Below are positions 2,273 to 9,269 of a stretch of 33,665 bases of DNA, piece after piece (position 1 is the stretch's first letter; every line of letters starts with the position of its first letter). The stretch is from an uncultured Prochlorococcus sp. (GTDB lineage Bacteria; Cyanobacteriota; Cyanobacteriia; PCC-6307; Cyanobiaceae): NCBI GenBank assembly GCA_902564235.1, contig CACFAG010000011.1, positions 1 through 33,665 of the forward strand, read 5' to 3'. The position numbers and the translations under genes were made by a program. The notes beneath the pieces were generated by a model that searched no databases, had not been told where the DNA came from, and saw nothing but the letters and a program-made list of their open reading frames with translations.

Positions 2273-3589
2273 TTAGAACTTAAATACTGTGGTAAGCATT
2301 GCTCCAAAGATATCTTGGTCAGTTGAGGACTCAACATCAGTTCCTCCCCATATACCAGGAGTAATAGTAATTGAATCGTTAGGCTTGAATGAATAATATG
2401 CTTCCCAAAGGAAAGGGTCAACTTCACTCAAAGTTCCAGTAGTAACTTGTGTTGCCTTAACAGGTTGTCCGAGAGCAAACCCTATCCTATCGTCAGCTTG
2501 GATAATATCCTGCCAACCTAGTCCAACAAAATATCCAGAACCTTCTGAAACATTTAGAGGATGATTATCAAAATTAATTAAATCATAACCAAGTGATATT
2601 TCAGGCACAGCAACACCTGAATCTTCTGGTCTCCAGTAAGCTCTTAATGCATATGCATCAGCATTAGCATCTGAACCCAGTTTGGTAGAGTCACCAACAT
2701 TACCATGAATAAGTTCTGTTGAATAATACTCATGAGCATCCCATCCAGCATGTTGCTTAGAGTAAGTTACAGAAGCATGATACTGAGGCTTTGTAAAAGC
2801 AATCATAGTATCGATTTTACTCTTATCACCATCAGTTAAGATTCCAGAAGATGTTTTACTACCTTTACCGACGTAATTAGTGCTCATTGCTAAGCCACTA
2901 TCACCAAAATCATACTTAATTCCGGCACCACCATCAGTACTAGCGCCGAATACGGCACCATTGCCGCCAAGTTTAAATGCTTTTAAGACGCCTGGCTTAT
3001 AAATCGAAGGAGTTGCCGCCATCATATAATAGTTCTCTATTTCAGGGCCAACCCAAACAGTAGTGTTATCTCCAAGTGGGAATGTGTACCATAATTTATC
3101 AAGTTTTAAGTCGCTGCCAGTATTCTTTGCTTCAATATGGTAATTACCTGGTTTTTTGGTAAAGTTAGAACCCCAATCACCAGCAGATAATCTTACATAA
3201 AGATTGTCATCACCAGTAAAACTTGTATTCAAGTTCATCTTGTGTACATAAGCAAAAGAAAGAGCTTCTGAGCCGCCGATTGTATCTCCGCCATCAACGC
3301 CACCTACTGCGAAGACAGCTTTTCCATCCATAGTTGTAGTAGATGAAAAAGATCCAGCTTCAAAATTATTTTGTCTTGCTTCAATACCATCAACCCGATC
3401 ATTTAGGGTTGTGACATCTTCACTAATATTATTAGCGAATGTATTGCTATCAAATTTTTTAACTTTGGATGAGTTACGACGGTAACTATCAAGTTCTTCA
3501 ACATTGACAGCTTCAGTAGCTTGCACTGCAATTGGGGTTAATAAACCCAAAGCAGAACCAGCAACCAAAAGTTTTTGGAAGAGTTTCAT
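2273..3589 (-). CDS. som: Som-type outer-membrane porin
   Basis: A 438-residue outer-membrane beta-barrel of the cyanobacterial Som/OprB-like family, allowing diffusion of small solutes through the outer membrane. It has a signal peptide of about 24 residues ending in AVQA, a short coiled-coil-like linker (DRVDGIEARQNNFEAG, about residues 64-80), then alternating beta-strand sequence, with a terminal phenylalanine (TTVFKF) as expected for Bam-dependent assembly. The SLH domain found before the barrel in larger cyanobacterial Som proteins is absent or much reduced. The ATG has a clear AGG Shine-Dalgarno 6 nt upstream, inside a GTGTGAGG sequence complementary to the small RNA Yfr1. A hairpin-like dyad lies just upstream. 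The gene ends at a strong bidirectional terminator. Confidence 0.88.
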   Translation of the reverse strand: MKLFQKLLVAGSALGLLTPIAVQATEAVNVEELDSYRRNSSKVKKFDSNTFANNISEDVTTLNDRVDGIEARQNNFEAGSFSSTTTMDGKAVFAVGGVDGGDTIGGSEALSFAYVHKMNLNTSFTGDDNLYVRLSAGDWGSNFTKKPGNYHIEAKNTGSDLKLDKLWYTFPLGDNTTVWVGPEIENYYMMAATPSIYKPGVLKAFKLGGNGAVFGASTDGGAGIKYDFGDSGLAMSTNYVGKGSKTSSGILTDGDKSKIDTMIAFTKPQYHASVTYSKQHAGWDAHEYYSTELIHGNVGDSTKLGSDANADAYALRAYWRPEDSGVAVPEISLGYDLINFDNHPLNVSEGSGYFVGLGWQDIIQADDRIGFALGQPVKATQVTTGTLSEVDPFLWEAYYSFKPNDSITITPGIWGGTDVESSTDQDIFGAMLTTVFKF

Positions 3590-3593
3590 TTTA

Positions 3594-3601
3594 CCTCACA
3601 C
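3594..3601 (-). promoter_or_regulatory. Candidate Yfr1 small-RNA binding site over the porin Shine-Dalgarno
   Basis: The porin mRNA reads GTGTGAGG from 5 to 12 nt before its ATG. This is the exact complement of CCUCACAC, part of the ultraconserved unpaired core ACUCCUCACAC of the cyanobacterial sRNA Yfr1. The AGG in the site is also the only good ribosome-binding signal, so pairing should block translation. Yfr1 is known to act on porin mRNAs in Prochlorococcus MED4; that this site works here is inference. The yfr1 gene itself is not in the window. Confidence 0.65.
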
Positions 3602-3606
3602 TTAAA

Positions 3607-3626
3607 ATGGCCACAAAAGTGGTCAT
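3607..3626. promoter_or_regulatory. Dyad in the porin 5' leader
   Basis: ATGGCCAC and GTGGTCAT flank an AAAA spacer, forming an eight-position inverted repeat 18-37 nt upstream of the porin start. As RNA from the minus strand it folds with one A-C mismatch inside the stem. It could be an mRNA hairpin next to the Yfr1 site or a protein operator; the sequence does not decide. Confidence 0.45.
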
Positions 3627-3719
3627 ACAAATTGTATCGAAGGCAACTTTTTAAGGTAGGAATATTAGATCCATTTTCATGTAACAAATTTTACAAAGCT
3701 TTTCCCTTCACAAAATTTT

Positions 3720-4589
3720 TTATTTTTTTAATAAGGGAAAATTTAAATTTTTTCTCTCTTCCATCCAAGATGATGCAACTTCTCTAGCTAATTTTCGAAT
3801 CTTTTCAATATATTGAGCACGATCTGTGACTGAAATAACGCCCCTCGCATCAAGAAGATTGAATGTATGACTACATTTCAGAACAAAATCAAGGGCAGGA
3901 TAAGTTAATTTCTTTTCGATTAAGCTATTTGCCTCAGCTTGGTAAATTTCAAACAATTTTCTGAGATTATCAGCACTAGATTCAGTGAAATTATAAGAGC
4001 ATTGACTTTTTTCAAATTGAAGCCAAATATCGCTATATTTCAAATCTTTATTCCAATTTAAGTCCCAGATACTTTCCTTATCCTGCAAAAACATTGCAAT
4101 CCTTTCTAATCCATAAGTGATTTCAATTGGGATTGGATTACAATCTATACCCCCGCATTGTTGGAAATAAGTAAATTGAGTAACTTCCATTCCGTCTAAC
4201 CAAACTTCCCAACCTACACCCCAGGCTCCAAGTGTTGGAGACTCCCAATTATCTTCCACGAATCTTATATCATGATTTCTGGGATTAATCCCAAGAGATT
4301 CTAAAGATGTCAAATATTTTTCCTGTATACCCTCTGGAGATGGTTTAATAATTACTTGATATTGAAAGTAATGTTGCGCCCTATTTGGATTGTCGCCAAA
4401 ACGTCCGTCTGTAGGCCTTCTACATGGCTCAACGTATGCAACAGACCAAGGTTCCGGTCCAATGGCCCTCAAAAAAGTATGAGGATTCATTGTACCAGCG
4501 CCCTTCTCGGTGTCGTAAGGCTGCATAAGCAAACAACCTTCTTCTGACCAAAAGTTATTTAGATTTTTAATTATATCCTGAAAAAACAT
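3720..4589 (-). CDS. glyQ: Glycyl-tRNA synthetase alpha subunit
   Basis: A 289-residue alpha chain of the bacterial alpha2-beta2 glycyl-tRNA synthetase, which activates glycine and carries the class II catalytic core. Hallmark segments are all present: [19 protein letters not shown] near the start, [16 protein letters not shown] (about residues 56-71), [10 protein letters not shown], and [20 protein letters not shown]. Length is normal. The beta-subunit gene glyS is not adjacent, as is usual in cyanobacteria, where the two are unlinked. The porin gene follows 130 bp downstream on the same strand. Confidence 0.97.
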
Positions 4590-5152: not shown

Positions 5153-5485
5153 TTAACTAAAAGTTCTTCCATTCCAAGCCCACAATGAAGCGGACACATC
5201 CTCAAAAGAAATATAAATCCTATCTATAGGAATTCCCATTTTCTCATTAACAAAATCGGATATTGGCTTAGCCATTTCTGAGGGATTTAAAGAACCTATT
5301 GACTTAATTTCTAAGAAGCAAGAAGGTGACTCACCATCAAAATACATTTGACATTTATCATTTATCTTAGCCATTACAAATCGTTTAGATTTATTGGTCA
5401 AAGATGAAACTAAAATCGCAATTTCTTCGAGTAATTTTTCTTTATCATTTACTTTTGATGAAGTCGAAACATTAATATAAGGCAT
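5153..5485 (-). CDS. MIF-like / phenylpyruvate tautomerase-family protein
   Basis: A 110-residue protein of the macrophage migration inhibitory factor (tautomerase) superfamily. It begins Met-Pro-Tyr-Ile-Asn-Val, so cleavage of Met would expose the catalytic N-terminal proline. The family beta-alpha-beta pattern follows: a helix at about 14-31, CFLEIKSIGSLNP around 60-72, a second helix (SEMAKPISDFVNEKMGIP), and DRIYISFEDVSASLWAWNGRTF at the C-terminus, which matches MIF. Pro2 and the length (about 115 is usual) support an active tautomerase, but the physiological substrate in cyanobacteria is unknown. Its start lies 2 bp after the stop of the preceding small ORF, implying co-transcription. 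Confidence 0.85.
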   Translation of the reverse strand: MPYINVSTSSKVNDKEKLLEEIAILVSSLTNKSKRFVMAKINDKCQMYFDGESPSCFLEIKSIGSLNPSEMAKPISDFVNEKMGIPIDRIYISFEDVSASLWAWNGRTFS

Positions 5486-7542: not shown

Positions 7543-8601
7543 TTAGTTTTGAGTAATTTTTGTATTTTCAATATTGTCAAATGCTTGACCAATTTTCTTA
7601 AAGTCAAATCCCATAGCTCTTAGAGCGTGCCAAAGATGACCTTGTAAGAAAAAGAAACCCAAATAAAAATGAGTATTAGCAAGCCAAGCTCTTGAGCTAT
7701 AAGCTCCTGAACCTAAATCTACTGTATCAGTAAAATAAGGTGCGAATTCAAATTGAAGCTTTAGAGGCTCTCCATATAAATCAACTGGATAGATGGTTGT
7801 GTTTGAAGCACACCAAAAAGCAGCAACTAAAGCCATATAAGAAACACCAACTACTGAGTATGACAAAATTGCCTCAGCACCAAGTAATCCTTTTCCTTTA
7901 AATTCTGTATATTCTCCAAATTGTTTAGTACAAATATGGAAAACTCCTCCAATTATTTCGAGGAACGCTAAAAAAGCATGTCCTCCCATAACATCTTCAA
8001 GACTATCAATTTTTAAAAAATCAAATTGATGATTCCAGATAGCAGCAATATCTAAATTGTAAATAACTTGTCTAGTAGATCCTAGAGCAGGGTCGTAAAT
8101 TCCATGAATACGAGCCCATTCAACGAACATTATTGCTCCAAGGCCAAGAAAAATTAGATGATGACCAAGAATAAAAGTTAATTTATCTGGATCATCCCAT
8201 TCAAAATCAAATTTTTGTGGCTTACTATTTTCTGGATAGTCTCCGAGATCACCAGCAAATTTATTGGAGTGTAGTAATCCCCCAGCACCCAATACTGCTG
8301 AAAATATTAGATGTAATGTGCAAATTACAACAATTCCATATGGTTCTGTAATAACACCATTTTCAATGCCGCCAATTCCAATACCAGCGAGGTGAGGTAA
8401 AACAATTGCTTTCTGTGCACCCATTGGAATACTGGCATCGTAACGAGCTAATTCAAATAATCCAAAAGCTCCTGCCCAAAACATCATTAAGCCTGCATGG
8501 GCAGCATGAGCAGCTATGAATTTACCTGAACGGCCTACGACACCAGAATTTCCTGCGTACCAGTCATAGGTGACATCAGATTTTCCGTAAGTTTGTAACA
8601 C
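7543..8601 (-). CDS. pcb: Chlorophyll-binding antenna protein, Pcb/IsiA family
   Basis: A 352-residue six-helix thylakoid antenna protein related to CP43 and IsiA that binds (divinyl) chlorophylls. Helix-linked histidines are visible in AAHAAHAGLMMFWAG, LPHLAGIG, LHLIFSAV, FILGHHLIFLG and GGHAFLAFLEIIGGVFH. The large lumenal loop of CP43 is absent, which marks the Pcb/IsiA group. The segments AHAAHAGLMMFWAGAFGLFELA and ALGSTRQVIYNLDIAAIWNHQFDFL look closer to IsiA and PSI-associated Pcb than to the PSII-type PcbA as I remember it. The start is GTG, giving MLQTYGKSD as in other Pcbs. It follows isiB flavodoxin by 143 bp on the same strand; in many cyanobacteria isiA and isiB form one iron-stress operon, so an iron-induced PSI antenna role is inferred. 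Confidence 0.9.
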   Translation of the reverse strand: MLQTYGKSDVTYDWYAGNSGVVGRSGKFIAAHAAHAGLMMFWAGAFGLFELARYDASIPMGAQKAIVLPHLAGIGIGGIENGVITEPYGIVVICTLHLIFSAVLGAGGLLHSNKFAGDLGDYPENSKPQKFDFEWDDPDKLTFILGHHLIFLGLGAIMFVEWARIHGIYDPALGSTRQVIYNLDIAAIWNHQFDFLKIDSLEDVMGGHAFLAFLEIIGGVFHICTKQFGEYTEFKGKGLLGAEAILSYSVVGVSYMALVAAFWCASNTTIYPVDLYGEPLKLQFEFAPYFTDTVDLGSGAYSSRAWLANTHFYLGFFFLQGHLWHALRAMGFDFKKIGQAFDNIENTKITQN

Positions 8602-8744: not shown

Positions 8745-9269
8745 TTATGCCAATGAGGGAATTTCATTCTTAAGCTGAGAAGCCCAATTTTCAAGTCTTG
8801 AATCGGTCAAATCAGATTCACTATCCTCATCAAGAGGTAATCCACAAAAGCTTTCACCTATAACACTTTTAGACTCATCAAATGTATAAGATGATTTATC
8901 TACGTAACCGACCATTTCGGCACCTGCTTTAGTGAAGTAGCTATGAAGTTCTTCCATTGCATCGCAATAGTTTTCTGTATAGGTGGAAGAATCTCCTAAA
9001 CCAAAAATTGCAACCTTTTTTCCTGATAAATTTAGTTCGCCAATATCCTCTAAAATTGAATCCCAAGCAGTCCCAGATCTTTCTTCATCAGCGCCAGTGT
9101 TCCAAGTAGGTATCCCGCAGATTATTCCATCAAGGCCTTCAAATTCTGCAAGATCATCCACATCAGATACATCTTTAGGTGCTTCTGCTGAAGAGATAAA
9201 GTTGTGAAGACGATCAGCTACGTCTTCAGTTTTTCCAGTTGTAGTTGCGTAATAAATTCCTACAGTCAT
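8745..9269 (-). CDS. isiB: Flavodoxin, iron-stress induced
   Basis: A 174-residue long-chain flavodoxin, the FMN electron carrier that replaces ferredoxin at photosystem I under iron limitation. The FMN phosphate loop is at residues 9-14 (TTTGKT), the flavin-stacking aromatics are Trp56 (GIPTWNTG) and Tyr97 (GLGDSSTYTENYCDAM), and the long-chain insertion follows (YVDKSSYTFDESKSVIGESFCGLPLDED, about residues 122-149). It precedes the pcb antenna gene on the same strand, giving the order isiB then pcb, reversed from the common isiA-isiB order. The upstream gap to a divergent gene contains a 16-bp palindrome that could be an operator. Confidence 0.97.
   Translation of the reverse strand: MTVGIYYATTTGKTEDVADRLHNFISSAEAPKDVSDVDDLAEFEGLDGIICGIPTWNTGADEERSGTAWDSILEDIGELNLSGKKVAIFGLGDSSTYTENYCDAMEELHSYFTKAGAEMVGYVDKSSYTFDESKSVIGESFCGLPLDEDSESDLTDSRLENWASQLKNEIPSLA

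Follow-up and report, generated by a model that had tools for sequence, protein, structure and literature searches.

In Escherichia coli, the mRNA of the outer-membrane protein gene ompA combines a 5' stem-loop with pairing of a small RNA, MicA, over the ribosome-binding site. In cyanobacteria, the closest described system is that of Prochlorococcus MED4, where the small RNA Yfr1 controls the Som porins PMM1119 and PMM1121 (Richter 2010, as reported in citing papers; Lambrecht 2019, PMC6778093). According to the accessible text of the latter study, PMM1121 is enriched in a Yfr1 pull-down and is repressed 4.7-fold by Yfr1 in an E. coli reporter (3.8-fold with control RNA), RNAs of the Yfr2 family bind Yfr1 and relieve this repression in the same reporter, and another small RNA, Yfr10, is detected in SS120 and has targets in common with Yfr1 in MED4. 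In Nostoc PCC 7120, Yfr1 represses mRNAs of outer-membrane proteins in E. coli assays, and one of the targets, alr0834, is termed a homolog of the two Prochlorococcus targets (accessible text of PMC6974561). Hfq is missing from 10 of 12 Prochlorococcus strains, as stated in the accessible part of PMC2518516.

Here, these systems are compared with a porin locus of an uncultured Prochlorococcus sp., contained in a stretch of 33,665 nucleotides (contig CACFAG010000011.1 of assembly GCA_902564235.1) that was analysed as a whole and is referred to below as the window. The source assembly comprises 1.2 Mb and is 68% complete. The relevant features of the locus, and the gene of the small RNA found elsewhere in the same assembly, are as follows.

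2273..3589, minus strand: Som-type OprB porin of 438 aa starting with MKLFQKLLVA, a glyQ-linked paralogue (Pfam OprB, 2.9e-12)
3594..3601, minus strand: complement of the Yfr1 core, GTGTGAGG, at -12 to -5 from the porin ATG, including the Shine-Dalgarno-like GAGG
3607..3626, minus strand: leader hairpin ATGACCAC-tttt-GTGGCCAT with one A.C mismatch, 5 nt upstream of the site
3631..3636, minus strand: putative -10 element TACAAT, 4 nt before the hairpin, from a permissive search with no shuffle control
3720..4589, minus strand: glyQ, glycyl-tRNA synthetase alpha (PF02091, 1.2e-144), the upstream neighbour of the porin
G000:C21:10704-10757 (another contig of the assembly): yfr1 (Rfam RF01116, 58 bits vs a cut-off of 38), the one match in this assembly

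The OprB domain of the window porin scores above the cut-off (47.1 bits vs 22.9). Just beyond the porin, a solute-binding protein (SBP_bac_6) and a PKHD-type 2OG-Fe(II) oxygenase, which we take to be PiuC-like, are encoded at 91-1881, and these two genes appear to lend the porin neighbourhood an iron theme. Elsewhere in the window, an Rfam match to IsrR (8028-8199, plus strand, 54.1 bits vs a cut-off of 52) lies antisense to a gene of the PSII/Pcb family (7543-8601, minus strand), next to which a flavodoxin gene is found (8745-9269, minus strand); the arrangement resembles that of an isiA-isiB pair accompanied by a putative antisense RNA. A MIF-domain protein of 110 aa is encoded at 5153-5485 on the minus strand.

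MED4 was recognised among the family genomes as G095 by the position of its yfr1 (complement 1000744..1000797, as printed in PMC1242208). Its two porin genes, near 1,066 and 1,069 kb, are separated by a single gene, and no further porin was found in the 3.8 kb beyond the pair; the two are taken as PMM1119 and PMM1121 from the gene order and from the position of Yfr21, which is placed beside PMM1121 at 1069553..1069757 (accessible text of PMC2518516). The products of the pair are 88% identical to one another, 53-58% identical to a second porin of our genome, located on contig C20, and 28-30% identical to the window porin, the C20 porin, not the window porin, being the closer relative of the MED4 pair. 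The window porin has no close counterpart in MED4 (best match 1.1e-25), and the window gene is therefore regarded as a separate, glyQ-linked paralogue. The precedent invoked by an earlier, sequence-only first-pass annotation, namely the control of porin mRNAs by Yfr1 in MED4, needs correcting in one respect: both MED4 porins carry the 8-nt site, but they are paralogues of the window porin, not orthologs. The window thus shares with the MED4 system the Yfr1 core, the 8-nt site before the ATG and the protein superfamily, and differs from it in the glyQ-linked paralogue and in the leader hairpin, which is absent from both MED4 leaders. With Nostoc, a distant host, the likeness is one of target class.

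The plus strand around the site reads ...TTTTACCTCACACTTAAAATGG... and the minus-strand mRNA 5'-...CAUUUUAAGUGUGAGGUAAAAUG, the minus strand at the start of the porin reading frame being 5'-...GACCACTTTTGTGGCCATTTTAAGTGTGAGGTAAAATG.... The 8-mer is perfectly complementary over 8 nt to CCUCACAC of the Yfr1 core, and this seed match overlaps the porin ribosome-binding site. Reading of the window confirms the first-pass annotation in both respects, the perfect core complement just before the porin ATG and the presence in it of the only Shine-Dalgarno-like AGG, which is the sole AGG within 60 bases upstream of the start codon; the coordinates were also correct, and the strand, which had been omitted, is the minus strand. 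One exact copy of the 8-mer occurs in the window against a chance expectation of 0.23, and at least one copy was present in 19 of 100 shuffles of the window. By itself, the 8-mer fits chance and is not significant, though its position and conservation do not fit chance, which was rejected as a full explanation of the site.

The proposed partner is encoded in the same assembly with its full core ACTCCTCACAC intact, within ...CCCCATACTCCTCACACACTAAATCGCCCG.... The RNA of 54 nt is predicted to fold into two stems on either side of the open core, and a thioredoxin-like reading frame (WCGPC) follows downstream; RF01116 is characterised by two stem-loops around a single-stranded core of 11 nt, located between guaB and trxA, and here the frame on the trxA side was read. 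Across the family, Yfr1 matches were obtained in 184 of 200 genomes. In genus g5, all seven genomes (G004, G037, G059, G073, G083, G093 and G103) are without a match to the Yfr1 model, and in the same seven neither the window porin nor OprB found a match; regulator and target family look jointly absent there, in an OprB search that was not strict and missed porins in G061 and G143.

To predict the duplex, the search was confined to the single-stranded linker of Yfr1 and opening costs were charged. The Yfr1-porin duplex then reaches -14.1 kcal/mol, or -12.3 kcal/mol net of the opening cost. The duplex implied by the first-pass annotation is the best of 33 gene starts under this scoring (taken from 39 window ORFs, six that overlap others being excluded), with a runner-up at -7.1, and ranks 14 of 33 under unconstrained scoring, which favoured long hybrids that are costly to open and was superseded by the linker-limited search. 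In a sliding scan with the unconstrained scoring, about 2 of 3364 40-mers equal or beat the porin 40-mer. The same script gave -11.8 kcal/mol for the second porin of this genome, -7.2 kcal/mol for the third, which has GTGTTGAGG in place of the site, and -13.5 and -5.7 kcal/mol for PMM1119 and PMM1121, for which IntaRNA energies of -13.42 and -10.54 have been published (accessible text of PMC3142192). In the leader alone, the GTGT half of the site is predicted to be mainly open (0.71-0.94 unpaired) and the GAGG half mainly paired (0.16-0.29 unpaired).

Close relatives of the porin retain the site throughout. A homology search of named genomes identified 31 porin loci, 29 of them with a readable leader, and the exact 8-mer is present in all 29, down to about 40% protein identity; a search of the 200 family genomes returned a longer list, and each of the best 29 further loci on it has the exact 8-mer as well. 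Altogether, GTGTGAGG precedes the ATG in 58 of the 58 fetched relatives with a readable leader, a few of these being duplicate retrievals of one sequence (L012 and L043, for example). Column identity was compared at the 42 of 50 loci where the glyQ start could also be located, the glyQ leaders of the same loci serving as the control. The porin leaders show an identity of 0.90 over -12 to -5 and 0.56 over -60 to -13, the former falling short of 1 because one clade sets the same 8-mer one base farther from the ATG; the corresponding values for the glyQ leaders are 0.67 and 0.58, with 0.71 for their best run of eight columns. The eight bases are thus kept beyond the rest of the leader, which is what the first-pass annotation had named as support for its reading. 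Neither of the two findings that it had named as refuting, a site that orthologous porin leaders do not share or a Yfr1 of this strain without the core, was obtained.

Farther out, the conservation is partial. From other genera, 20 porin starts were selected; the leader is readable in 17, of which 11 carry the exact site: five of five in genomes with a Yfr1 match (G001, G010, G029, G033 and G055) and six of 12 in genomes without one (G006 0/1, G039 1/3, G022 2/3, G050 2/2, G143 1/1, G013 0/2). In G013, where both leaders that were read have lost the site, a trxA-like frame is preceded by a Yfr1-like core. The SS120-like genus was represented by 14 genomes with 30 loci, and the N-terminal motif identified 20 leaders among them: six with the exact site, 13 with TGTGAGGA and one with GTGAGGA; yfr1 was absent from the three genomes of this genus that were tested (G006, G039 and G061). 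The loss of yfr1 was considered as a natural experiment and set aside as not clean: the exact 8-mer is still found in five of nine leaders from G006, G039, G022 and G050, and therefore the comparison cannot separate Yfr1 from Yfr10.

Pattern counts extend the association to other porins. The 8-mer occurs seven times in our genome, and three copies are followed by an ATG at a distance of 3-6 bases, an arrangement that the reversed control pattern never shows; two of the three are at porin starts (of three porins found, two have the exact site) and one is on the antisense strand of yfr1. For GTGTGAGG-N3-6-ATG, 151 family genomes give 611 occurrences vs 93 for the reversed pattern, and for GTGTGAGG-N3-8-ATG, 61 genomes of the genus give 262 vs 13, totals that include antisense strands of yfr1 and Yfr10-like RNAs as well as chance frames. 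Among the first 60 sites listed (18 genomes), 34 precede Som-type porin-like starts as judged by eye, one of these frames having a stop at residue 55, and the other 26 comprise 17 short frames and nine unassigned sites, three of which precede a permease-like start. The recurrent non-porin copies of Prochlorococcus that were checked, among the matches listed, are short frames or antisense of Yfr1- or Yfr10-like RNAs. At these three loci (L274, L287 and L289), each in a genome of genus g4, the permease-like start (MDAALLEQMLLGALLALSVYLPL) follows GTGTGAGG by 3 bases; judging from this arrangement, the gene is a possible further target of Yfr1.

The leader also contains a hairpin, predicted at -6.8 kcal/mol in the window against a shuffled mean of -2.4. 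Across 44 leaders of the subfamily, the mean is -7.1 vs -3.5 kcal/mol for dinucleotide shuffles (mean z -1.9), and 24 of the 44 reach the 5% level individually; no excess folding is seen in two sets, of 6 and 8 leaders, from another clade (z -0.6 and 0.3). A mixed set of 53 leaders, composed of the 44 from the homology searches and nine of 17 other-genus leaders chosen by eye for a visible hairpin, gave -7.3 vs -3.6 kcal/mol (z -2.0); no consensus fold was obtained from the alignment of these 53, because their loop lengths differ. In 20 of the 53 that were picked for a common register, a selection that leans toward structure, 85% of 133 cells pair, compared with 29-47% in slid controls, and four of seven pairs have changed on both sides. 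Of nine leaders of other paralogues, six, including both from MED4, fold no better than shuffles, and the other three do so or nearly so (G164a 0.07, G008 0.09, and C2 of our genome 0.03). Being absent from the MED4 leaders and from several other paralogues, the hairpin is therefore not needed for pairing with Yfr1. The long-lived som mRNA reported for MED4 (accessible text of PMC2897979) was rejected as support for the hairpin, since the MED4 leader of that gene lacks it. A search of the leader against Rfam returned no family at its gathering score and two matches, both far below theirs. If TACAAT is a real -10 element, the transcript would start near the base of the hairpin; the permissive search places a -10-like hexamer before the stem in 53 of 53 leaders, 4-7 bases away in 41, and a stricter consensus scan of the window found no promoter.

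Taken together, it is quite probable that small RNAs with the Yfr1 motif have a conserved target on the porin mRNA, through which they would lower porin synthesis. In the source strain, we infer, the single-stranded core 5'-ACUCCUCACAC-3' would bind GUGUGAGG at -12 to -5 in the cell through eight continuous base pairs; the pairing would hide the sole Shine-Dalgarno-like element and so block the loading of ribosomes, and the effect would be repression, with less window porin being made, until Yfr2-family RNAs bound Yfr1 and relieved the block. The broader proposal of the first-pass annotation, small-RNA control of outer-membrane permeability at this locus, draws support from what is observed: the site itself, a yfr1 gene elsewhere in the assembly, a predicted duplex between the two, and conservation in the subfamily and at many porin paralogues. 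The control itself would follow if the mechanism operates as outlined.

Part of this evidence can be read differently. The Yfr1 core appears to resemble the anti-Shine-Dalgarno sequence CCUCC, and the element might be merely a strong porin ribosome-binding site whose complementarity to the small RNA is a by-product of the resemblance of Yfr1 CUCCUCAC to the 16S anti-Shine-Dalgarno. GAGG is a plausible Shine-Dalgarno sequence near the ATG and belongs to the ribosome-binding site anyway, so four of the eight bases may be kept for translation alone; 13 of the 20 SS120-like leaders differ from the 8-mer at its first G but keep GAGG, with TGTGAGGA remaining, as this explanation would also predict. 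However, GTGT does not fit the anti-Shine-Dalgarno sequence, yet is invariant in all 58 leaders, and one G022 leader even keeps GTGT after the last G of GAGG has gone. Moreover, within our genome, the two porins and the antisense strand of yfr1 are the only places where the element has this spacing of 3-6 bases to an ATG, and nothing similar is seen in the glyQ leaders of the same loci, all of which makes a ribosome-binding site alone a distinctly unlikely account. Copying of the 8-mer along with the porin gene by duplication or conversion, with no regulatory role, would explain why the site and an MKLF-like signal start are kept together in many paralogues, but the bases flanking the site differ between paralogues, the spacing of exact copies to the ATG varies from 3 to 9 bases, and the 8-mer is exact at protein identities as low as those between the window and MED4 porins; we consider such passive inheritance extremely improbable.

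The identity of the small RNA is a further question, as the operative partner might be Yfr10 or another RNA with the same core instead of Yfr1. At least 8 bases complementary to ACUCCUCACAC survive in 19 of the 20 SS120-like leaders, where TGTGAGGA is complementary to UCCUCACA, and SS120 is the strain in which Yfr10, with its MED4 targets shared with Yfr1, was detected (accessible text of PMC6778093). All 16 genomes without a Yfr1 match contain ACTCCTCACAC; in genera g7 and g22, its copies have common surroundings, with GGAC before and GTCC after, followed by a GC-rich hairpin (L114, L115, L117 and L118), and in L112, L113 and L156 the predicted fold has the motif within a loop, its described location in Yfr10. 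The former four are candidate Yfr10-like RNAs, but their folds show no clean loop at the motif, and the count of the 11-mer in the 16 genomes, 30 vs 20 for the reversed control, is weak evidence. In our assembly, at its 68% completeness, the single occurrence of CTCCTCACAC is yfr1 itself, and a partner other than Yfr1 appears rather unlikely. The hairpin, for its part, could together with the U-rich stretch form a weak transcription attenuator or terminator, and in some relatives (e.g. L049) the stem is directly followed by a T-run; given that a terminator scan finds none in the window leader and that the short stem would sit at the very start of the transcript if the -10 element is right, this function is very unlikely.

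For the family-wide conservation of the site and for the leader hairpin, no statement was found in the open-access literature searched; the hairpin is the part that was not found described, and any role assigned to it is putative. One tentative possibility, which we hold to be somewhat doubtful, is a two-part leader in which a structurally conserved hairpin, at or close to the 5' end of the transcript, protects the message and the separate, nearly invariant Yfr1-motif site gates its translation, such that a long-lived porin mRNA would be silenced or released by the balance of Yfr1 and Yfr2. The window leader resembles that of ompA in having a stem-loop together with predicted small-RNA pairing over the ribosome-binding site, and differs in that the RNAs are unrelated and the stabilising role of its hairpin is only hypothetical. 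If true, the two-part leader would represent an ompA/MicA-like architecture that evolved independently in Prochlorococcus, most of which lack Hfq.

The switch known from one strain probably also governs the window porin, to judge from the site and its partner, and the gene is best regarded as an addition to the known set of Yfr1 porin targets, a paralogue lacking a close match in MED4. Protein regulators are few in Prochlorococcus, and porins help to determine what passes across the cell surface. The link between Yfr1 and porins, known for two MED4 genes, is widened here to take in a separate subfamily of porins within the genus and, as far as the motif shows, porin starts of many further family genomes, and a short testable sequence can be named for it. 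The result also suggests one reason for the strong conservation of the Yfr1 core, namely the need to match the ribosome-binding sites of porins.
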